From positions 1-44,095 of the forward strand of contig JACPTB010000012.1 of NCBI GenBank assembly GCA_016192995.1: a DNA stretch of 44,095 bases, written 5' to 3'. The position numbers were made by a program, and so were the translations under genes. The DNA is from Candidatus Woesearchaeota archaeon. Its GTDB lineage: Archaea > Nanobdellota > Nanobdellia > Woesearchaeales > DSVV01. Below are positions 6,868 to 32,474 of the stretch, one piece after another (within the stretch, counting starts at the first letter, position 1; the number at the start of each line of letters is the position of its first letter). Below the pieces are notes generated by a model. That model saw only the letters and a program-made list of their open reading frames with translations. It had not been told where the DNA came from and did not search any database.

Positions 6868-8120
6868 GTTTTTTGCCTTTTTTCTTTTTTATCTACAGTA
6901 ACTACTTCACCAGCTCCTGTTGTAACATTAGGCCAAAGCTTTCTCCCTGGATTAATAGATGTATGTACACCCGTATGAACACCATCACTTACAATAGTGC
7001 CTAACTTTCTTTCTCCTGTATCTATTAATTTACCGTTAATCTCACTTTTGATGTTTACGTTGTCGTGTCTTAGGTTGGCAGTAATAGTACCTGCTCCAAA
7101 ATTAATATTATCACCAAGAACTGAATCACCTACATAACTGAGATGACCTACTACTGCATGATTACCAAGAATTGAAGCTTTAACTTCTACTGCATTGCCT
7201 ACTTTGCTTTTGTTGCCTATTGATGTTGGACCTCGAATATAGCAGTTTGGACCTATAATGCAGTCTTCACCAATAACTACTTTGCCTTCAATGTAGGTAC
7301 CTGATTTAAGTATAGAACCTTTACCAACAACAATATTACCTTTAATACTCACATTATCTTCAATAACTGCGTCTTTGCTGATATTATTTTGGTTTATTTG
7401 TGATAAAAAGTGAGTATTTGCATCAAGCAATGACCAACTATATGTTATAGGGAGCCAATTCTCAGCTTCTACGGTAAAAATATCTTTTTCTTTTGCCATC
7501 ATTGATATTAAGTCAACAAAATCATATTCTCCTCGTGATGATTTTTTAAGCTTGTCTTTGTAGTTAAAGATGGTTTTATCCAAATGAAAGACACCAATAT
7601 TTGCAAGATCGCCTATGACATGAGCTGGCTTTTCTACAATTGATGTTACTTTGTTTCCTTTATTGTTTTTTTCGGTTAAAACAATCCCAAAATGTTCAGG
7701 ATGAGGAACTTTTTTTACCAGCATGGCATACTGATGCTGTAATAATTGTTCTATATCATTTCTAAAATAAATATCATCACCATACATAAACAAAAATGTA
7801 TCTTTAATATAAGGTTCAGTGACGAGAAATGCGCTTCCTGTGCCATTGATATTTGGCTGCTCAACATAGGTTATTTTCATCCCTCCATAAGAATCACCAA
7901 CTGCATCAATGATTTGTTCCTTGAGATAATTAACAACAATAATCACTTCATCAACAAGTCCTTTGAGGTTGTCAAGAAAATAAAAAATAATTGGTTTATT
8001 TGCCACGGACAATAATGTTTTTGGCTTTGTCAAGGTAAGAGGATAGGTGCGCGTGCTTTTTCCCGCACAAAGAATAACTGCTTGCATTTTCTTTTCCGTC
8101 TTTGCTTCACTTTTCTTCAT
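6864..8120 (-). CDS. glmU: Bifunctional GlmU-like sugar-1-phosphate nucleotidyltransferase / acetyltransferase
   Basis: 418 aa. An N-terminal nucleotidyltransferase domain (AVILCAGKSTRTYPLTLTKPK, then NGTGSAF and GDDIYF) is followed from about residue 245 by a left-handed beta-helix of hexapeptide repeats (VIGEDCIIGPNCYIRG, VGHLSYVGDSVLGDN, FGAGTITANLRHD). It probably acetylates glucosamine-1-phosphate and couples it to UTP. Archaeal homologues work as Glc/GlcNAc-1-P uridylyltransferases, so specificity may be broader than in bacteria. The start overlaps the glmM stop as ATGA. A second in-frame ATG at 8087 (MQAVILCAGK) is an alternative that removes a charged 11-residue leader. Confidence 0.9.
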   Translation of the reverse strand: MKKSEAKTEKKMQAVILCAGKSTRTYPLTLTKPKTLLSVANKPIIFYFLDNLKGLVDEVIIVVNYLKEQIIDAVGDSYGGMKITYVEQPNINGTGSAFLVTEPYIKDTFLFMYGDDIYFRNDIEQLLQHQYAMLVKKVPHPEHFGIVLTEKNNKGNKVTSIVEKPAHVIGDLANIGVFHLDKTIFNYKDKLKKSSRGEYDFVDLISMMAKEKDIFTVEAENWLPITYSWSLLDANTHFLSQINQNNISKDAVIEDNVSIKGNIVVGKGSILKSGTYIEGKVVIGEDCIIGPNCYIRGPTSIGNKSKVGNAVEVKASILGNHAVVGHLSYVGDSVLGDNINFGAGTITANLRHDNVNIKSEINGKLIDTGERKLGTIVSDGVHTGVHTSINPGRKLWPNVTTGAGEVVTVDKKEKRQKT

Positions 8121-9487
8121 AGATTAACACCAACTTCTTGTTTTATGAAACCAGCGAGATCTTCAGCGATCATCTTGACCTGATCTTGTTGTTTACCTTC
8201 GACCATGATCCTGCAAATCATTTCTGTGCCTGAATATCTTATTAATATCCTTCCTTCTGTTCCGAGCAATTGTTCATACTCCTTAAGTTTAGAAGTAAAC
8301 TTAGGCAAAGTGCCTAATGGTTTCTTTTCTTGCACTTGAATGTTGATTAATACTTGTGGATATTTTTTGAAGTTATCAACTAATTCTGACATCTTTTTGT
8401 TTGTTTTACTAAGAATCTCCACTATTTTTAATGCTGAGACAATACCATCGCCCGTAGTATTATAATCGCCAAAAATAATATGACCTGAAGCCTCACCACC
8501 AAAATTATACCCTTTATTTTTCATTACTTCAATAACATATCTGTCACCATTTTGTGTTCTTACCACCTTGCCACCTATTGAAGCAAGGTAATTATCTAAT
8601 GCAAGATTGCTATATTCAGTGACGACTACTGTTTTGTGTTTTAAAGTGTTTTCAACGAGCATTTGTTGAGCGCAAAGCGCTAGGATGTAATCACCATCTA
8701 CGACGTTGCTTTTCTGATCAATGACCACAACTCTGTCAGCATCTCCATCAAAAGCAAAGCCAATATCAGCTTTAACTTCCATGACTTTTTTTTGAATTTG
8801 CTCGGGATGCATTGCTCCACAATGATCATTAATGTTTAAACCATTTGGTGCATCGTTAATAACGATAACTTCAAATCCTAATTCTTTTAACATCATCGGA
8901 GCAACTGAGTAACTTGCACCATTTGCGCAGTCAAGCACAATCTTCAGTTTTCGTTTAGGAAAATCCTTTATTGTGCTTTTAGCAAACTCAATGTATCTGC
9001 CCTTTGCATGGTCAATTCTGTAGGCCTTTCCTAAATTTTCAGGCGCAACATGATCTGTTGAAAGATGATTATGTATAACAAGCTGCTCTATTTCTTGCTC
9101 TAATGCATCTGAAAGTTTATAGCCATCCGAAGAAAAGAATTTAATACCATTATCTGAAGCTGGATTGTGGGAAGCTGTAATCATAATGCCTGCATCTGCT
9201 GCAAAACTTTTCGTTAAATGAGCAATGGCTGGAGTTGGCAAAGGACCGACTAAATACACATCAACACCCATGCTGCAAAAACCTGATGTTAATGCTGTTT
9301 CAAAAACATAACCGCTAATCCTCGTATCTTTACCAATAATAACTTTGCATTTTTCACCATCCTTATTTTTTTGCTTAAGCAATACTTTAGCTGCAGCTTG
9401 CCCTAGCTTCAAAGCTATTTCAGGAGTCATGGGAAAGCGATTTGCTTTTCCCCTTACGCCATCAGTTCCAAATAGTTGTTTTACCAT
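8117..9487 (-). CDS. glmM: Phosphoglucosamine mutase
   Basis: A 456-aa alpha-D-phosphohexomutase. The N-terminal substrate motif is GTDGVRGKANRFPMTPE. The phosphoserine loop TASHNPASDNG lies near residue 100, the Mg-binding DGDADR near 242, the sugar-binding GEASGH near 333, and the phosphate-binding RYSGTE near the C terminus. The GTDGVRG start is typical of GlmM rather than PMM/PGM, and the operon partners agree. It converts glucosamine-6-phosphate to glucosamine-1-phosphate. It is the first gene of the operon, with a TATA box and a perfect palindrome just upstream. Confidence 0.94.
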   Translation of the reverse strand: MVKQLFGTDGVRGKANRFPMTPEIALKLGQAAAKVLLKQKNKDGEKCKVIIGKDTRISGYVFETALTSGFCSMGVDVYLVGPLPTPAIAHLTKSFAADAGIMITASHNPASDNGIKFFSSDGYKLSDALEQEIEQLVIHNHLSTDHVAPENLGKAYRIDHAKGRYIEFAKSTIKDFPKRKLKIVLDCANGASYSVAPMMLKELGFEVIVINDAPNGLNINDHCGAMHPEQIQKKVMEVKADIGFAFDGDADRVVVIDQKSNVVDGDYILALCAQQMLVENTLKHKTVVVTEYSNLALDNYLASIGGKVVRTQNGDRYVIEVMKNKGYNFGGEASGHIIFGDYNTTGDGIVSALKIVEILSKTNKKMSELVDNFKKYPQVLINIQVQEKKPLGTLPKFTSKLKEYEQLLGTEGRILIRYSGTEMICRIMVEGKQQDQVKMIAEDLAGFIKQEVGVNL

Positions 9488-9490
9488 ACA

Positions 9491-9520
9491 GCAAACTCAG
9501 TTTGCTTGTAATTTATAAAT
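9491..9520 (-). promoter_or_regulatory. glmM promoter with palindromic operator candidate
   Basis: On the minus strand ATTTATAAAT (9511-9520) is the TATA box, about 28 bases from the ATG at 9487. Between them lies a perfect 15-base inverted repeat, GCAAACT-C-AGTTTGC on the plus strand (9491-9505), covering the expected transcription start. A repressor bound there would block the UDP-GlcNAc operon. Confidence 0.55.
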
Positions 9521-9599
9521 ACTATTCAAAAAAAATTTATAGTAATATTATAAATTTATTCATAATAATATAAAAATATTTAAATACCATTATATTATT

Positions 9600-10547
9600 A
9601 TGAATAAATTTATGGATCAAGAACAATATTTCATGATTAAAAAGGATGGTAAATTACAGTACAGTGATGCCTTATTTCTCGAACATCCAGAGGATATTAA
9701 GCTATTAAGCCATGAGGTTAAAATAAATATTTTACAGCTATTGCAGGGAAAACCACTTTATGCTATTGAAATAGCTAAAGAATTAGGTGTGCATGAACAA
9801 AACGTGTATTATCACTTAAATCAATTGATCCAAGCAGGTGTTTTACAAGTAGTTGAGAAAAAAGATATCAGAGGAACTACTGCAAAAAGGTATGCACCCA
9901 AACATCCTAATATTGGCATTTCTTTAGGCGGAATTTATAAGGATTTAAGCCAGCTTTCTCAAAAGAATACAAATCAGCTATTAACTCACTTTTTTAAAGG
10001 TTTTATAGCTGAAAATGAGTTCAAAGGACAGATTATTATAGGGAGCCCTGATCCTCACGGAGAACATAAAGCACGAGCAAGAGATGGACATTACGCTATC
10101 GAGATAGGAATGCTGCTTGGGCAGCTTATCTCTGTGCAAAAAGGATTTTCTACAGTATTGGATGTTAATGCTGATTTAAGCAAGATTAAATATGCCCTTG
10201 TGATAGGGGGGCCCGTTACTAATTTAATTGCTGCTAAGATAAATTCTTATGCTCCTGCAAAATTCAATAATAAACAACCATGGTGTATTATTACCCAAAA
10301 AGAAGATTATACTGAAGAAAGTGTAGGTGTAATCACTAAGTTCAAAAACCCATGGCATGAAGATGGTATGATCATCTCTATTGCTGGCGTAGGAAATTCT
10401 GGTACAAGAAGTGCCATTTTAAGCATTATAATGCATTATAATGAGTTATTAAGCCATTATAATGGCAAAGAACCTTGGTTTAAGATTGTCCAAGGATTTG
10501 ATTTAGATGGCGATGGAAGCATAGATTCTGTGGAAATTTTAGAGTAA
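9600..10547 (+). CDS. Winged-HTH regulator with C-terminal S-layer-like domain
   Basis: 315 aa. Residues about 30-100 form a winged helix (HEVKINILQLLQGKPLYAIE, then LGVHEQNVYYHLNQLIQAGVL) of ArsR type. The C-terminal half contains GSPDPHGEHKARARDGHYAI, ALVIGGPVTNLIAAKIN and ISIAGVGNSGTRSAI, resembling a domain found in archaeal S-layer-like proteins (from memory of the family). It ends in GFDLDGDGSIDSVEILE, which matches a canonical EF-hand loop. There is no signal peptide, so it is probably cytoplasmic. An in-frame ATG at 9612 (MDQEQY) is an alternative start given TATA spacing. Three CATTATAATG palindromes lie inside its 3' end. Target genes are unknown; the downstream array and transglutaminase gene are obvious candidates. 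Confidence 0.75.
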   Translation: MNKFMDQEQYFMIKKDGKLQYSDALFLEHPEDIKLLSHEVKINILQLLQGKPLYAIEIAKELGVHEQNVYYHLNQLIQAGVLQVVEKKDIRGTTAKRYAPKHPNIGISLGGIYKDLSQLSQKNTNQLLTHFFKGFIAENEFKGQIIIGSPDPHGEHKARARDGHYAIEIGMLLGQLISVQKGFSTVLDVNADLSKIKYALVIGGPVTNLIAAKINSYAPAKFNNKQPWCIITQKEDYTEESVGVITKFKNPWHEDGMIISIAGVGNSGTRSAILSIIMHYNELLSHYNGKEPWFKIVQGFDLDGDGSIDSVEILE

Positions 10548-11073
10548 ATAACTGTTTTTTACTCACTTTTAGATAGAATAATGGAATTTCGCGAGTTTAG
10601 AACCTTACTCTTCTCAATAGAATTCATTTTGAATGCATGATCATATTTGAGAGGTTAATAGAATGGTAAAAAGACCAATAAAAGAGCGTTACAATACATT
10701 ATAATGTGCATTGTAATGCGTTATAATGCATTGCAATGCATTATAATGGCAAATTGAGCTTTTCTTTAAAACAATTTTATGGAAGAGAAAATAAACGAGA
10801 AAGTTCAGCAACAAAAACAAGCATTTTTACGCAAAAAATGAAGCGAATGATATTAAAAGTGAGGCATAAATTGAATAAAGTATTAAAAAAGACAGGAGGT
10901 TACATGATAAATAATAAAATAACCTAAGAATAGTACAGGATAAGCATTATAATGCATTGCCAATGTTGGCAATGTAATGAAGATAATGTTAATAATGTTG
11001 GCAATGCCCATGAGTAAATGCTAGTCCAAGATAGTTATTACGGTGTTTAAACGTGTTATAATGCATTATAATG
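10424..11073. repeat. Array of 10-bp palindromes (CATTATAATG) in and after the HTH gene
   Basis: Exact CATTATAATG copies occur at 10424, 10434, 10455, 10697, 10739, 10945 and 11064. One-mismatch or sister palindromes occur at 10709 (CATTGTAATG), 10719 (CGTTATAATG), 10729 (CATTGCAATG) and 11054 (a TGTTATAATG-like unit). From 10709 to 10748 the units are tandem with an exact 10-base period. A related inverted repeat, CATTGCCAA (10955-10963) with TTGGCAATG (10966-10974), follows. The 594-base gap between the HTH gene and 11142 holds these repeats and no convincing long gene. A perfect AGGAGGT followed by ATG at about 10904 opens only a 7-codon frame. Confidence 0.85.
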
Positions 11074-11141
11074 GCTACTGAAAAAGTGGTGTTGCCAAAA
11101 AAAACGAATATTTATATCTGTATCCAAATATCTTTTTCCTA

Positions 11142-12344
11142 ATGAGATTTTCACGCTATGTAACACTATTAGCAGCTATTGCAGGATTTCTCGCTCCAGG
11201 AATTATTTCGAAGCAACAAAATATCTCCCTTAACCCTACAATAGGGGCAGCTTTAAGAGGATGCATCCCTACGTCATTGAAAGAGATATATACCCAAATT
11301 GCTTTGAAGGGTAATGCAGCTACCTTAGATTCTTTGTTATCTAAATATGATGGATCAGCAAATATTAAGGAAAAAGATTCGATTTTTGAAAAACATATTC
11401 CTGATTCTACATCTGAAGATAAAAGGAGAGAACTTCAAGTTTTAACACATATGTTTTGGGTTGAAATAACTGGTGCTGTGCCGTGGTCAGTACATGATTA
11501 TTCACCTTTAGAAATACAGGCTCTTCATGATTCTGATCCATTAGCGTATAACATTGGCTTTGAAAGGAGTAGGAGTAGTGGTGATTATAACCCTTATCGC
11601 GGTTCAAGAATCCTTTCAGAAACATATAAAGTTTATCCGTTGGTGAAGAAAATTATAGGTGATGCACAAAGTCATGAAGAAGCAGCTTGTGCACTGATTA
11701 CATGGGCACAAAAAAATTTTTTTCATTATGCTGCTGGAACAACTGATAAAAATAATCAAATGTGGCCACAATGTGATGAAATAAAGGTATGGAAAACACC
11801 TTATGCTTGTGATAATGCTCTAAAAGATCCCCATGTTTCAATTGAAGATGTTTTTAAAGATAGAGGTATAGGTTGCCATATAGGAACTATGGTTCTTGCA
11901 ACAATGTTTAGGTCAATAAATATTCCTGCAGACTATGTTCGTGATACATTTGGTCACGCTTCTCTTTATTTACCGACACTTGATAGATTTGTTCACGGAG
12001 ATATAATTGCATTTGGTGAAGCTATACCCTGTGGTAAGGTAATCATGACTGAAGAAGAATTAGTTAAACAAACACAAGGTGACTATGGTGGTTATAATCT
12101 ATTTGAGGGTGGAGATATAGTTTTTAATTTGTATTCCATACAATTATTAAGAACGCAAGAAGGATTATATATCAAAGGAAATCTTCCAAAAAAATCAACA
12201 CCCGCATTAGAATATGTTTTAAGAACGCTTAGTGAATACAAGATTAAGATTGGTGAAACAACTGATCCAAACGAAAATTTTAGCGACTGGGAAGGTTGGG
12301 GTGCTGTTACGAGTAAAATTGTTCCAGTTATACCATTAGAGTGA
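11142..12344 (+). CDS. Exported transglutaminase-like (papain-fold) protein
   Basis: 400 aa. A hydrophobic N terminus (about residues 4-22, LLAAIAGFLAPGII) suggests export or anchoring. The transglutaminase-like core has Cys in GIGCHIGTMVLATMFRSINIPADYV (two halves, near residue 247), His in FGHASLYLP (near 270) and a following Asp in FVHGD. These are the family's Cys-His-Asp triad in the expected order. Such archaeal proteins are thought to act as cysteine proteases or peptidases rather than crosslinkers; the substrate is unknown. A TATA box (ATTTATAT at 11110-11117) lies 28 bases before the ATG, so the mRNA is probably leaderless. It lies directly after the palindrome array, which may control it. 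Confidence 0.75.
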   Translation: MRFSRYVTLLAAIAGFLAPGIISKQQNISLNPTIGAALRGCIPTSLKEIYTQIALKGNAATLDSLLSKYDGSANIKEKDSIFEKHIPDSTSEDKRRELQVLTHMFWVEITGAVPWSVHDYSPLEIQALHDSDPLAYNIGFERSRSSGDYNPYRGSRILSETYKVYPLVKKIIGDAQSHEEAACALITWAQKNFFHYAAGTTDKNNQMWPQCDEIKVWKTPYACDNALKDPHVSIEDVFKDRGIGCHIGTMVLATMFRSINIPADYVRDTFGHASLYLPTLDRFVHGDIIAFGEAIPCGKVIMTEEELVKQTQGDYGGYNLFEGGDIVFNLYSIQLLRTQEGLYIKGNLPKKSTPALEYVLRTLSEYKIKIGETTDPNENFSDWEGWGAVTSKIVPVIPLE

Positions 12345-12400
12345 AGTAATATTCGTTATGCTGAGATAAGAAAAAGTAAAATAAAAAAATAACTCTTTGC

Positions 12401-13267
12401 TCATAACACCTGCAAATTATACACTTTCTTAATCCTTTCTTTATTCGTAATGGTGAATAGCTTTATTCCTGATGGTAACATATGCTCTTCAACTAAATTC
12501 TTACGCTTGAGAATGTTCATATTAACACGCACGGTATTAATACTATGGCCGGTTTTCGCTGCAATCTGAGCATAATTCATAGGTTCTGATTGATTAAATA
12601 AAAAGCTTAATAATTTCTTTTCAGGAGAGGTTAAATCAGATTGATACCCAGAGACAACTGATGGAATAGGCTGCAATGGTTGAAATATTGGTTGGACGGG
12701 TTGCTGTGATCGTTGCATATGTTGTATAGGAACTTCATGACTAAGATGTTCTTCATGACGAACAGCACGCTGTTCAAGCAATTTCTTCTTCTCTTTTGCT
12801 TCTCGTATTTTTTCAGCGTCCAATAATAGTTTAACCTCATTCATAAGCTGTTCTCTCAGCTTTTGCTCATCAACTTTAGGATGATTCTTAATCAGCTCAT
12901 AAATATCTTTAATATTTTTGTTATATAAAAGAAATGCTTTGCTTACATTTTCTTCAAGAGTTTTTATTCTATTTTCAAGGGCTTTGTTATTAGCATGAAG
13001 AAAATCGATCCATTTAGACATATGAGCAATATGCGTGTTTGTTTTGCTTTTATTGGCTTCATGGGATATTTTTAAATCAGTATGTGTTTTTGTTATTTCT
13101 TTATGCGCTTGAGCTAATGTTTGGTGGGATTGGTGCAAATAAGAAATCCATTTGTTTTGATTTTCAATATCTTTACGTAGATTAGTAAAAGAAGCTGCTA
13201 TCTGATTACGCATCATAGCTAATTGTGCAAGCTTTTTATCCTCTTTTTCTCCTAATAACCAACCCAT
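12401..13267 (-). CDS. Coiled-coil protein with C-terminal winged-HTH domain
   Basis: 288 aa. Residues about 5-175 are strongly helical with heptad-like repeats and several Trp/His segments (NQNKWISYLHQSHQTL, then HMSKWIDFLHANNKAL, an internal duplication). A Pro/Gln-rich linker at about 185-210 leads to a winged helix (SPEKKLLSFLFNQSEPMNYAQ onward, ending near ITNKERIKKV) of MarR/Lrp-like form. Such long coiled-coil HTH proteins are common in DPANN genomes; function is unknown. A TATA box on the minus strand at about 13287-13298 sits 26 bases upstream. A palindromic mobile element has inserted just beyond that promoter. Confidence 0.7.
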   Translation of the reverse strand: MGWLLGEKEDKKLAQLAMMRNQIAASFTNLRKDIENQNKWISYLHQSHQTLAQAHKEITKTHTDLKISHEANKSKTNTHIAHMSKWIDFLHANNKALENRIKTLEENVSKAFLLYNKNIKDIYELIKNHPKVDEQKLREQLMNEVKLLLDAEKIREAKEKKKLLEQRAVRHEEHLSHEVPIQHMQRSQQPVQPIFQPLQPIPSVVSGYQSDLTSPEKKLLSFLFNQSEPMNYAQIAAKTGHSINTVRVNMNILKRKNLVEEHMLPSGIKLFTITNKERIKKVYNLQVL

Positions 13268-13311
13268 GGATATTTTTAGAAGATATGGTTATATAAAGTT
13301 TTTGCTGGTTT

Positions 13312-13472
13312 GGCTCTGGTGAAAATCTCGGCATAGCCTCGGTTTTGGCATCAGTTCGGCTTTTAATGTAATTATGGATTGGATTTTTCTCTCTGGCACT
13401 CCGAAAAATCCCCATGAGTAAACTTTAAGAGCCTCACGAAAAGATGCCAAAAACTACATTTTCACCAGAGCT
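13312..13472 (+). mobile_element. Palindromic MITE-like element, copy 1
   Basis: 161 bp with terminal inverted repeats GCTCTGGTGAAAAT (13313-13326) and its complement (13458-13471), flanked by the perfect 8-bp direct repeat GCTGGTTT (13304-13311 and 13473-13480). The outer parts resemble copies 4 and 5 (CTCGGCATAGCCTCGGTTTT). The centre (GGATTTTTC ... GAAAAATCC hairpin) matches copies 2 and 3, so it is a mosaic. Its right end lies inside the AK6 gene and supplies that gene's last codons and stop. It encodes no protein. Confidence 0.88.
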
Positions 13473-13924
13473 GCTGGTTTTGAGGTATTAATTATCTTAA
13501 TTTTATGTCCAAGCTCTTGCGCTTCATGATAACAAATGTCGAATATCTCCGCATCAAGATTTTCTCTGATTTTAGCTGCATTATAATGTCTTTTTTTTAA
13601 TCGTGTTTGCAATTCTTTTAGATTTGTTTTTGTGATAATACAAAGAGTCACATACTTTGGCGGTAGATAATGAGCAAGATGAGAATCAATGATAAGATCT
13701 TTCTTTGTTTTATTTGCTGCGGTAATATACTTTATGAGAATTTTATTCAATTTTTTAATATTTATTAGTTTACACTTAGACCTTTTATCATAGCCTTCAC
13801 TTAACTTATGTTTTGTTATAACATGGGTTACATCAATATACTTTCCTTTGTTTAAGTTAGCTATTTTCTTAGCTATTGTTGTTTTTCCTGTTCCTGGTGT
13901 TCCTGAAACAATGATGATAACCAT
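13454..13924 (-). CDS. Adenylate kinase isoenzyme 6 / Fap7-family NTPase
   Basis: 156 aa. The P-loop GTPGTGKTT lies at about residues 8-16. The AK6-type lid region is KIRENLDAEIFDICYHEA near residues 117-135, and an Asp-Ser-His-Leu segment (IIDSHLAHYLPP) lies near 77-88. Fap7/AK6 proteins act in late small-subunit rRNA maturation and have adenylate kinase/ATPase activity. The last residues (ALVKM and the stop) are encoded by the terminal inverted repeat of element copy 1. Removing the element would give a different tail, KTLYNHIF. It starts two bases after the preceding gene, so the pair is an operon. Confidence 0.88.
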   Translation of the reverse strand: MVIIIVSGTPGTGKTTIAKKIANLNKGKYIDVTHVITKHKLSEGYDKRSKCKLINIKKLNKILIKYITAANKTKKDLIIDSHLAHYLPPKYVTLCIITKTNLKELQTRLKKRHYNAAKIRENLDAEIFDICYHEAQELGHKIKIINTSKPAALVKM

Positions 13925-13926
13925 TT

Positions 13927-14487
13927 TTACCTCATATAACTTATATCGCCTGGCTTGAATATTTTTCTGAAAACATCGATAAAAACTTCTGATTGCACAG
14001 GAATACCTGCGCTAATAAATGCTTGCGCTAATTCTTTACCACAAAGCTCTTCATCTGCTTCTGATCTGAAATTAAGAAGGTTTTTCAAGGTATTTTCGCA
14101 TAAAAAATCATTATTAAGCTGGAGAACGACTTTACTTCCTTGTTTTTGAATTGCACCTGTATTAAAATCCAAAATGATATCTTGGTATTGCCAAAGATTA
14201 TTATTTTCTTTTACTGGTGAAAATCCATGTTTATAAAGTTCGTACATGATATATTTTTTGACAATATCTTTTGCTCCTGTATTTTCAAGATAAACCTCAA
14301 GATCTTGATCTACGAAATCATTAAAGCTCTTCTCTTCTGGAAATTCAGATTTTGACTCTTTTGGTTCAAGGGTTACAACCCTCCCTAAATAACCAACGAC
14401 TTTTTGACGCGCGCCTTTTTTAGTCCATTGATTAACAACAGCATAAGCATAATAGAATTGTTTGATTTTCTTTATGCGAATAAACAT
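13927..14487 (-). CDS. Conserved hypothetical protein with basic N terminus
   Basis: 186 aa, not assigned. The N terminus (MFIRIKKIKQFYYAYAVVNQW, in two parts, then KVVGYLGRV) resembles the start of some archaeal transposase-like or nucleic-acid-binding proteins, but no catalytic motif follows. The remainder is mixed helix and strand with a conserved-looking LENTGAKDIVKKYIMYELYKHG. A TATA-like CTTATAAATC lies about 26 bases upstream of the ATG. It precedes the AK6 gene by two bases, so the two are co-transcribed. Confidence 0.6.
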   Translation of the reverse strand: MFIRIKKIKQFYYAYAVVNQWTKKGARQKVVGYLGRVVTLEPKESKSEFPEEKSFNDFVDQDLEVYLENTGAKDIVKKYIMYELYKHGFSPVKENNNLWQYQDIILDFNTGAIQKQGSKVVLQLNNDFLCENTLKNLLNFRSEADEELCGKELAQAFISAGIPVQSEVFIDVFRKIFKPGDISYMR

Positions 14488-14540
14488 AGAGTTAATTAGG
14501 CACTATGATTTATAAGTTTTATTATACTAGTTCGATTATA

Positions 14541-16793
14541 CTATTTAAATACTTCTTCAAAGACTGCATCAATATCCTCTTCGTTGTAGCTCTCGAGCAA
14601 TTTCTTTTTCAATTCTTTTTTAGAATAATCTTTTTTCTTAACCAATTCAACAATATCAGCTTCTATTTTTAGGCGCTCGACAAGATGGTCTGCTGATGCG
14701 TGTTCATGTTTCGATTCGCTTTTTTGATCCTGTTTTTCTTTTTTCTCAGTTTTAGGCTCTTCAAGAAGTTTTTCTACTTTCTTTCCTGCTTTTTTAACTA
14801 AGGTTTGTAAATGCTTATATTCCTCTACTGACAGATCACCAGTATCAACATGATCACCACCTTTTACCTCTTTTTCACCAATTTCTTCTAATCTTTGAAT
14901 AACATCTTCAGCTGAGCCGAGATTTTCTTTATCACTTACGTTAGTATGCTCTTTATCATGATGTTCTTCTTCATATTCTACTTCATTACCATGCTCATCT
15001 TTATGCGGCGATGACGAAAACTTGTCTTTGTATTTATGAAGCATTAATAAAAGAATAATAACGCCACCAACTATGAATGCGATTACATAAAATACTTGTT
15101 GTTTAATATCAGCCCAAGGACTTCCCAGTAGCATGATATTCATCATAACATTCTGACTTATAACATAAGGATTAAATTCTTTAATCGAAACAATAGTCTC
15201 ATTTCCATATTTTAAGATGGTATCTGAAAAAAATGCCATGGCGCTAAACACCACTATGTCAGCAAATACACTGGCTTCAAGATCTTTAATCATAATACCG
15301 ATAATAATACCTATGCTTGAGAATAAAGCTGTAATAAGGAATAAAGGAAGGATACTGAGATGGAAATGCGCAATAAATGCTTTTGTGGCAAAAAGTGAGA
15401 ATACTACAAAAATAAAGATAGAAACAACGAGATTGAAAACAAACGTTGTTGCAAAAAATTCGACAAGGGTGTCATAAAATAATTGCGGTGATTTGAAAAT
15501 GTCTACCTCAAACCTTTTTTCATGAATAAGATGCGTAGCAAGGAGCATTGTTACTAAGATTATAAGAAACAAATAAACACCTAACAATGCTGCTGAAGTA
15601 TCAGTATTTTCAATGCTTTTAAGGGAACTTGGACTCTTTTGAGATAATGAAGTAGTTGGTGTATTTTCTAAGTTGTTTATTACTTCCTGAACAACTGAAA
15701 GCGTATTAACCATTGTATCCAAATTATTAGAAATTGCTTTTACTTTTTGGCTTAAACTGATTATCTGAGGCGACGCTGCGGTTCCGCTTGCAGGTTCAAT
15801 CTTGCCTGAAGCATACGAAAGCGTGCTTTGGGCTTTGTTAATATCTGAGATTATAGTATCTAAACTTGTGTTTACTAACCCTGATTGCGCAGCAAGATCA
15901 GTTTTTAGTTCCTTCACTACATCATTTGCATCTTCAAGCAGTTCATTGACATTATCTTTTTGGCTTGATGATAAGTCTGAATCTTTAACTTCATCTTCAA
16001 TGTCATCTAACTTATTAGTAACTTTCTCCAAACCCTTAAATGTTAGATCATTTAGATCTTCAAGATCTTTAAGAAGTTGGCTTTTAGAGCTTGAAAAATC
16101 CATCTGTTCAACAGTCACACTTGATCCAGGAGATCCGCTACCTTGAGAAGAACCACTTGCTCCACTGCTTATTATACCTTTTAATTCTTGTTCTAAAGCT
16201 AAAACTCCATTTTTTGTTTCATCAAGCTGCTTTTTCTGCTGATCTAGTCCTGTATTTAATTTACTAATATCATTAAGGAAGTTAAGTTTTACATCGCCAG
16301 ATGAAAGAGAAGCCCCCTCTGTCGCAACAAACGACTTAAGTAATGAGCTTAAGTAAGGAATATTCTCACTACTCATGTAAATATGCATCGAACTAGTGTT
16401 TGACGTATTAGATTGCACTGATGCTAAACATGCATGAACAAGACCATATTTTACACTATAAACACATGCTTCTTCTGAAAGTAATTTTATGGTTAAAAAT
16501 CCCTGTTGAGCAAAAGCTTGTTCATAAGTTTGAGATACATTGTTTGCATTAGGAAAATAGTAACCTACTTTCATAGTCATAGCTGTTTCTTCATTGAATG
16601 CAATTCCTAATAAGAGCACTAAGATTATAGGAATGAAAATAGCTACTAACACCCCAAGACGAGAATTTGAGATATTTTTAAGATTTGTAGTTATCTTTTG
16701 AAATAATTCCTGTAACTTCACTGGATCACCAATTTTTGATTTTTTTGGTATTTTAACTATATAAAACTTATTGTTTTTTCGAGTTTGCTGCAT
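14541..16793 (-). CDS. ABC-2-type membrane protein with large coiled-coil extracytoplasmic domain
   Basis: 750 aa. One membrane segment at about residues 45-65 is followed by an outside region of about 330 residues rich in coiled coil (for example LNTGLDQQKKQLDETKNG). Six or so membrane segments lie at about 400-610 (ALLGVYLFLIILVTMLLATHL and similar). This layout is that of YhgE/Pip-like ABC-2 permeases. The last 140 residues are a highly charged cytoplasmic tail ending in a small helical domain. No ATPase gene is adjacent. A 153-aa helical protein gene lies 20 bases upstream and is probably in the same operon. The transported substrate is unknown. Confidence 0.72.
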   Translation of the reverse strand: MQQTRKNNKFYIVKIPKKSKIGDPVKLQELFQKITTNLKNISNSRLGVLVAIFIPIILVLLLGIAFNEETAMTMKVGYYFPNANNVSQTYEQAFAQQGFLTIKLLSEEACVYSVKYGLVHACLASVQSNTSNTSSMHIYMSSENIPYLSSLLKSFVATEGASLSSGDVKLNFLNDISKLNTGLDQQKKQLDETKNGVLALEQELKGIISSGASGSSQGSGSPGSSVTVEQMDFSSSKSQLLKDLEDLNDLTFKGLEKVTNKLDDIEDEVKDSDLSSSQKDNVNELLEDANDVVKELKTDLAAQSGLVNTSLDTIISDINKAQSTLSYASGKIEPASGTAASPQIISLSQKVKAISNNLDTMVNTLSVVQEVINNLENTPTTSLSQKSPSSLKSIENTDTSAALLGVYLFLIILVTMLLATHLIHEKRFEVDIFKSPQLFYDTLVEFFATTFVFNLVVSIFIFVVFSLFATKAFIAHFHLSILPLFLITALFSSIGIIIGIMIKDLEASVFADIVVFSAMAFFSDTILKYGNETIVSIKEFNPYVISQNVMMNIMLLGSPWADIKQQVFYVIAFIVGGVIILLLMLHKYKDKFSSSPHKDEHGNEVEYEEEHHDKEHTNVSDKENLGSAEDVIQRLEEIGEKEVKGGDHVDTGDLSVEEYKHLQTLVKKAGKKVEKLLEEPKTEKKEKQDQKSESKHEHASADHLVERLKIEADIVELVKKKDYSKKELKKKLLESYNEEDIDAVFEEVFK

Positions 16794-16813
16794 AATATTG
16801 ATTATGCGACAAA

Positions 16814-17275
16814 CTACCCTAAATAACCTAAATCTTCATGGAGCTGTTCTTCTTTTAACCAGCTGTCACGAATTTTTTCAAGAATAATCAGAATTTTTTC
16901 CCGAAGCTCTTGCCATTGCAGAGTTATTTTGCTTATAAACAATGCTTGCTCGTTTTTATCATTTTTAAGCAGAATAAATGTTGCGCTTCTCTGGAGATGC
17001 ATAAGTTGTTTATAAACAATAATAATATCTTTACGTTCTTCTTCTGAAAATACCTTTGCTTCATGAAGGGAAGCTAATGACGCTTCAGGTTCAATAAGAT
17101 TGTATATTATTTTCTCGTAATATTCAAGGTAATCAACAATATGTTTTAAGAGATCTGATAAAAGTGAGAGTTCTGTTGGTTCCAAACTGCATATATTGAA
17201 CGAACTATTAAGTTGATCGAAACTTGGAAGCTTGTATTGTTGCTGTGCTTTTTCATAGATTTCTTTAAATTCCAT
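16814..17275 (-). CDS. Hypothetical all-helical protein
   Basis: 153 aa with no signal peptide or membrane segment. It is predicted to be a helical bundle (SLLSDLLKHIVDYLEYYEKI, then EERKDIIIVYKQLMHLQRSA). Not recognised. It lies 20 bases upstream of the ABC-2-type membrane protein on the same strand, so it may act with it. A TATA-like TATTTAAAG lies about 26 bases before the ATG (near 17299-17306). Confidence 0.6.
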   Translation of the reverse strand: MEFKEIYEKAQQQYKLPSFDQLNSSFNICSLEPTELSLLSDLLKHIVDYLEYYEKIIYNLIEPEASLASLHEAKVFSEEERKDIIIVYKQLMHLQRSATFILLKNDKNEQALFISKITLQWQELREKILIILEKIRDSWLKEEQLHEDLGYLG

Positions 17276-32382: not shown

Positions 32383-32474
32383 AGCCTCTAGCGAGAGTCG
32401 AACTCGCGACCTGCGCTTAACTCGAGTAATAGCACTTATACGAGAGCGCCGCTCTACCACTGAGCCACAGAGGC
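32383..32474 (-). tRNA. tRNA-Thr (anticodon CGU) with 20-nt intron
   Basis: 92 nt. Acceptor GCCTCTG pairs with TAGAGGC (one G-U pair), discriminator U. D arm GCTC-AGTGGTA-GAGC and T arm GCGAG-TTCGACT-CTCGC are normal. Anticodon stem is GCGCT/AGCGC, and the loop CTCGTA...A is interrupted after position 37 by 20 bases (TAAGTGCTATTACTCGAGTT). Intron CTCGAG pairs with the anticodon region as expected for a bulge-helix-bulge. No encoded CCA. Removing the intron gives a 72-nt tRNA. Confidence 0.93.

Follow-up and report, generated by a model that had tools for sequence, protein, structure and literature searches.

What is served by a dense array of 10-bp palindromes on the chromosome of a woesearchaeal archaeon, and which protein reads it? 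The array lies in a stretch of 44,095 nucleotides from a Candidatus Woesearchaeota archaeon (contig JACPTB010000012.1, positions 1 to 44,095; hereafter the window), which corresponds to contig C12 of a genome (G000) of 1,617,290 bases in 16 contigs with a completeness of 99.6%. Its unit is the palindrome CATTATAATG, and close to it is encoded an undescribed coiled-coil protein with a predicted MarR-like DNA-binding winged helix (CC-wHTH, for coiled-coil winged helix-turn-helix). On balance, it is rather probable that the palindromes constitute a binding-site array for the adjoining CC-wHTH protein and that they form one centromere- or tether-like locus.

The window contains eight exact copies of CATTATAATG, as against 0.16 expected from 100 shuffles of the window, none of which reached eight. 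Seven of them fall within 10424–11073 (at 10424, 10434, 10455, 10697, 10739, 10945, and 11064), and, together with near copies, eleven units are found in 650 bases, many spaced by exactly 10 bp. Two tandem palindromes (10424..10443) and a third (10455..10464) lie inside the coding sequence of a regulator gene described below. The main block (10697..10748) consists of CATTATAATG at 10697 followed by a tandem 10-bp block at 10709–10748, composed of CATTGTAATG (10709), CGTTATAATG (10719), CATTGCAATG (10729), and CATTATAATG (10739). Further downstream are CATTATAATG at 10945..10954, related half-site repeats (CATTGCCAATGTTGGCAATG ... AATGTTGGCAATG) at 10955..11010, and a second tandem pair at 11054..11073, formed by TGTTATAATG (11054) and CATTATAATG (11064); CAATGTT/AACATT repeats akin to the half-sites are also present in the arrays of three relatives (G001, G004, and G006). 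The eighth exact copy (13579..13588) is isolated inside a kinase gene upstream of the CC-wHTH gene; no strand is assigned to any of these elements. A preliminary description of this DNA had reported the palindromes with their 10-bp tandem arrangement and the four-unit block, both of which are borne out. It had also placed the first sites in the last codons of the regulator, which is incorrect, the first three being situated ~27–41 codons ahead of its stop. The related palindrome that it saw at the regulator promoter (~9588) does exist as CATTATATTATTATG, but it shares bases with the start codon, and its resemblance to the array unit is loose. Separately, the three palindromes in the regulator gene (10415–10464) encode HYN repeats, and the G006 homologue differs at this place with no insertion.

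In the whole genome, CATTATAATG is infrequent, with 17 copies (one for the reversed control pattern), and is not equally common everywhere, the case in which the preliminary description would have given up its operator array. Nine copies lie outside the window, where ~6 are expected by chance (0.16 per 44 kb scaled up); they are single or widely separated and mostly in coding sequence. Because these outside copies are near the chance level and mostly single, the cluster is one local array and no genome-wide motif.

A DNA search of 98 relatives detected similar arrays in several of them, and a pattern search for CATTRYAATG tandem pairs (one mismatch or fewer) was positive in 15 of 353 genomes of the order. 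The sole constant neighbour across the array loci inspected is the CC-wHTH gene (P0003; 12401..13267, minus strand, in the window), the product of which is the proposed binder of the array. In a profile search, strong CC-wHTH homologues (E<1e-50) were found in 15 genomes from four families, all 15 of which have CATTRYAATG-type sites beside the gene (taking the form CGTTATAACG in G279). Where the winged helix is fused, the array almost always follows the CC-wHTH gene directly on its 3' side; in the window, an extra open reading frame is located between the two. This uncharacterised frame (P0002; 11142..12344, plus strand) does not occur at the corresponding place in other arrays examined, and its product, previously labelled a transglutaminase, has no such domain in Pfam or NCBIfam. 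Among the genomes examined there is one array per genome, and in 400 kb of G058 clustered 10-bp palindromes occur nowhere except in its array. K-mer clustering at CC loci was compared with that in 600 random 3-kb windows drawn from two relatives; of 30 loci, 22 lie above the 95th percentile and 10 above the 99th. Judged from these associations, the array and the CC-wHTH protein very probably make up a cognate pair.

The gene initially credited with the array encodes an ArsR-type, S-layer-like helix-turn-helix (HTH) regulator (P0001; 9600..10547, plus strand) that has an additional domain at its C-terminus, and the palindromes had been suggested as its possible operators in a surface-remodelling regulon. 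In favour of this, the regulator carries a good HTH and its gene contains some of the sites; in six other families (G083, G073, G052, G012, G051, and G026), moreover, its homologue pairs with the CC gene, lying directly upstream on the same strand. It is near the array in the window and in G006, but missing at many other array loci (G003, G004, G058, and others), and the array is kept without it at loci L058, L059, L060, L084, L085, L087, and L088. The regulator and CC genes are therefore linked, yet the array is independent of the regulator and tracks the CC-wHTH gene, as far as the compared loci indicate. Because the array persists without the regulator while the CC-wHTH gene adjoins every strong case, the regulator is probably not the partner; in itself, the notion that a dimeric HTH protein uses phased sites seems right, and the expected conservation in relatives holds for the array but not for its company with the regulator. 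As for the regulon, at least seven arrays sit between convergent genes and thus cannot be promoter operators, each genome examined has a single array, and other promoters are not enriched for sites. We accordingly rejected an operator array of this regulator for surface genes as the main explanation and regard it as quite unlikely.

The CC-wHTH proteins of relatives comprise roughly 230–340 residues and combine an extended coiled coil with a winged helix at the C-terminus. In the AlphaFold model of the window protein, helices 7–128 and 134–176 are followed by a disordered linker and a winged helix (214–282) of high confidence, and the top Foldseek matches are MarR-type DNA-binding proteins. 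Sequence matches of the long helices to apolipoproteins and keratins were ascribed to coiled-coil composition and dismissed as homology. Most members begin with an aromatic and basic segment (MGxFxxFxKK-like), the aromatic content being 0.17 in the first 10 residues and 0.07 elsewhere; such an N-terminus is compatible with weak membrane attachment but is no proof of it. The neighbouring gene (13454..13924, minus strand), conserved beside the CC-wHTH gene, encodes a putative nucleotide kinase (AAA_18).

Divergent CC homologues are accompanied by other clustered motifs, namely TAGTCGACTA in G014, TGTTATAACA in G162, GTGACACA in G073, and ACATGTTAC in G097. GGTTCGG-type repeats occur in several families in which the C-terminus of the CC protein is LCGRTTFY, and all copies of GGGACNGTCCC in the complete G020 genome, three in number, are at its CC locus. 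Such lineage-specific motifs beside the CC gene are the expected trace of a protein and its site changing together. In several lineages the motif clusters run into the linker coding region of the CC gene itself, and in G341 GGACATGTCC is clustered on both flanks of the gene as well as inside the coding linker. At three loci (L118 1782–1855, L030 2721–2953, and L116 1437–1490), the motif copies in coding linkers are translated into repeated peptides such as KDMSGHEKDMSG; the protein sequence appears to be shaped by the embedded DNA sites. When protein class is tabulated against motif, 21 of 22 loci fit in-sample, but the P value is not independent because classes and motifs were picked with those 22 loci in view.

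From the array, its gene association, the lineage-specific motifs, and the predicted fold, all of which are read from the sequence itself, we infer binding, dimerisation, membrane contact, and a positioning role as follows. A dimer of the C-terminal winged helix, implied by the palindromic form of the sites, would read each 10-bp palindrome, and sites about one helical turn apart (10–11 bp) would align the dimers on the same side of the helix. Through the long coiled coil, the dimers would then be joined into a large nucleoprotein complex at a single chromosomal place, and the short aromatic-then-basic N-terminus may attach this complex to the membrane. The arrangement suggests a protein–DNA pair that marks or anchors one spot of the chromosome; its most likely use would be as a centromere-like site or an anchor of the chromosome, comparable to the repeated centromeres of partition systems or to the RacA tether. 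On this comparative evidence, a function of the pair in chromosome segregation or anchoring is a realistic possibility rather than a probability.

Several observations weigh against this proposal. A scan of the window neighbours recognised no partition motor, be it ParA, tubulin-like, or of another kind; the ATPase beside the CC-wHTH gene resembles a nucleotide kinase (AAA_18), and the other scanned neighbours are metabolic. The N-terminal segment of the window CC-wHTH has a low hydrophobic moment (0.10). An exact-motif prediction written in advance did not hold at unseen loci: at the four class IV loci (0/4), GGGACA occurred once or not at all, and GGTTCRG occurred in only two copies (three required) at one unseen class III locus. 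A simple code of one motif for each class was consequently rejected. Three of the four unseen class IV loci have seven-copy arrays with an ~11-bp period and a common TGGGA half-site, a pattern spotted after the prediction had failed, and the general association of array and CC gene held at these three; the fourth (G180) has no clear array apart from AAAGTGAG. Two of these arrays, those of G074 and G076, are situated 5' of the CC gene, a position that would allow autoregulation. This position, and the sites adjoining and sometimes lying inside the gene, would suit an autoregulatory or 3'-end element controlling transcription or termination of the CC-wHTH gene itself. Against this, members of the fused CC-wHTH class have their sites 3' of the gene, the window array is separated from its gene by the 1.2-kb open reading frame, and several sites across up to 0.8 kb exceed the needs of a simple operator. 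We consider such control unlikely as the explanation of the array.

Bacterial parS sites are usually located close to the origin, from which the CC locus of the complete G020 genome is remote. This bears in turn on the notion that the locus is itself a replication origin with the palindromes as initiator iterons, which would agree with AT-rich repeats adjoining a winged-helix gene, with an orc1 gene 8–11 kb from the array in three genomes of family f37 (G278, G279, and G280), and with two copies of a second element, AAAAGTGAG, upstream of the orc1 homologue of G000. In G020, however, the orc1 genes (764–767 kb) lie at the minimum of the detrended GC skew (760.9 kb), and the CC locus is at 436 kb; with orc1 and the skew minimum ~325 kb away, the origin was rejected for this genome, and the idea is very unlikely in general. 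GC skew over 400 kb of G058 was uninformative. The skew minimum of G020 (C1:764200–766745, L233 area) holds two tandem orc1/cdc6 genes and is its likely origin. G000 has a TIGR02928 match and an orc1 homologue (C4:89532–90609; L176 11532–12608), and the PF09079 profile has no match anywhere in that genome, so that the C-terminal domain of the homologue may be divergent; an absence of Cdc6, considered on the PF09079 negative, was dropped in view of the TIGR02928 match and the homologue found. The second element itself has 16 copies genome-wide, seven of them in the window region 7041..17168 (7041 minus, 7406 plus, 9985 minus, 10562 minus, 10855 plus, 15391 plus, and 17160 plus). It clusters at CC loci of many other families (e.g., G020 C1:437779–438205 and L190 7610–9586), making it a possible conserved second cis element.

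As RNA, the array region folds better than its shuffles (z −3.3) and tandem palindromes could form hairpins, as would be anticipated for a structured RNA, terminator hairpins, or a degenerate mobile repeat. On the other hand, a perfect 10-bp palindrome leaves no loop, the motifs vary by lineage while the gene association is constant, and the genes around the array keep a conserved chromosomal order. A structured RNA was rejected after Rfam gave no match for the array, and a mobile element after plasmid DNA gave none; explanations of this kind are highly improbable. Elsewhere in the window (32383–32474, minus strand), ARAGORN predicts a tRNA the type of which is undefined; its anticodon has four bases (cgta) and it may contain an intron. 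Rfam also scores this element as a tRNA.

The proposed binding-site array of the CC-wHTH protein recalls several known systems. RacA of Bacillus subtilis combines an HTH and a coiled coil, binds centromere-like ram sites, oligomerises, and tethers DNA to the membrane (PMC6593407). The architecture of HTH and coiled coil is common to CC-wHTH, but the HTH of RacA is N-terminal whereas the winged helix here is C-terminal, RacA reaches the membrane via DivIVA, and the ram sites are spread across the chromosome while the present array is at one locus; neither sequence homology nor a family match to RacA was found. In type III plasmid partition (TubR–tubC/TubY), a DNA-binding protein assembles on a repeat centromere, and TubY has an HTH, a coiled coil, and an amphipathic membrane helix (PMC7762940). 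The CC locus differs in having no recognised TubZ-like motor and in being chromosomal, tubC lying upstream of its operon in a plasmid-borne system. In archaeal SegAB, a site-specific protein acts on palindromes that are concentrated near the locus encoding it (PMC12284271); SegB is, however, a ribbon-helix-helix protein paired with the ParA-like SegA, and its 13-bp motif is well conserved across genera, in contrast to the CC-locus motif, which changes between families. MarR/ArsR operators are alike in the predicted DNA-binding fold and palindromic sites, and differ from CC-wHTH, which has a long coiled coil and a linker, with an array mostly 3' of genes and not at promoters. Of the features of partition systems, clustered repeats adjoining the gene of the proposed binder are seen at CC loci, the predicted winged helix with its associated array makes CC-wHTH a candidate for a site-specific binder, and a nearby motor (ParA, ParM, or TubZ) was not found among the window genes scanned. 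Because homology is lacking and no motor was found, we describe CC-wHTH as a protein working like RacA, TubR–TubY, or SegAB, not as a member of any of these.

A literature search on Woesearchaeota and chromosome segregation returned nothing on the subject by title and abstract, and, to our knowledge, little is known about chromosome positioning and segregation in DPANN archaea. We tentatively envisage, as a possibility less likely than not, that Woesearchaeota have a hitherto undescribed, order-wide, fast-diversifying system for anchoring or segregating the chromosome. A membrane-associated CC-wHTH protein would act in it with a co-changing, lineage-specific palindromic centromere beside its gene and with no recognised partition motor. 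Rapid co-change of protein and site is known for plasmid centromeres; if the proposal is true, the present system would add a case on an archaeal chromosome. With its changing arrays, the CC-wHTH family offers naturally matched and mismatched combinations of protein and DNA, so that DNA recognition and a centromere or tether role are directly testable with purified proteins.
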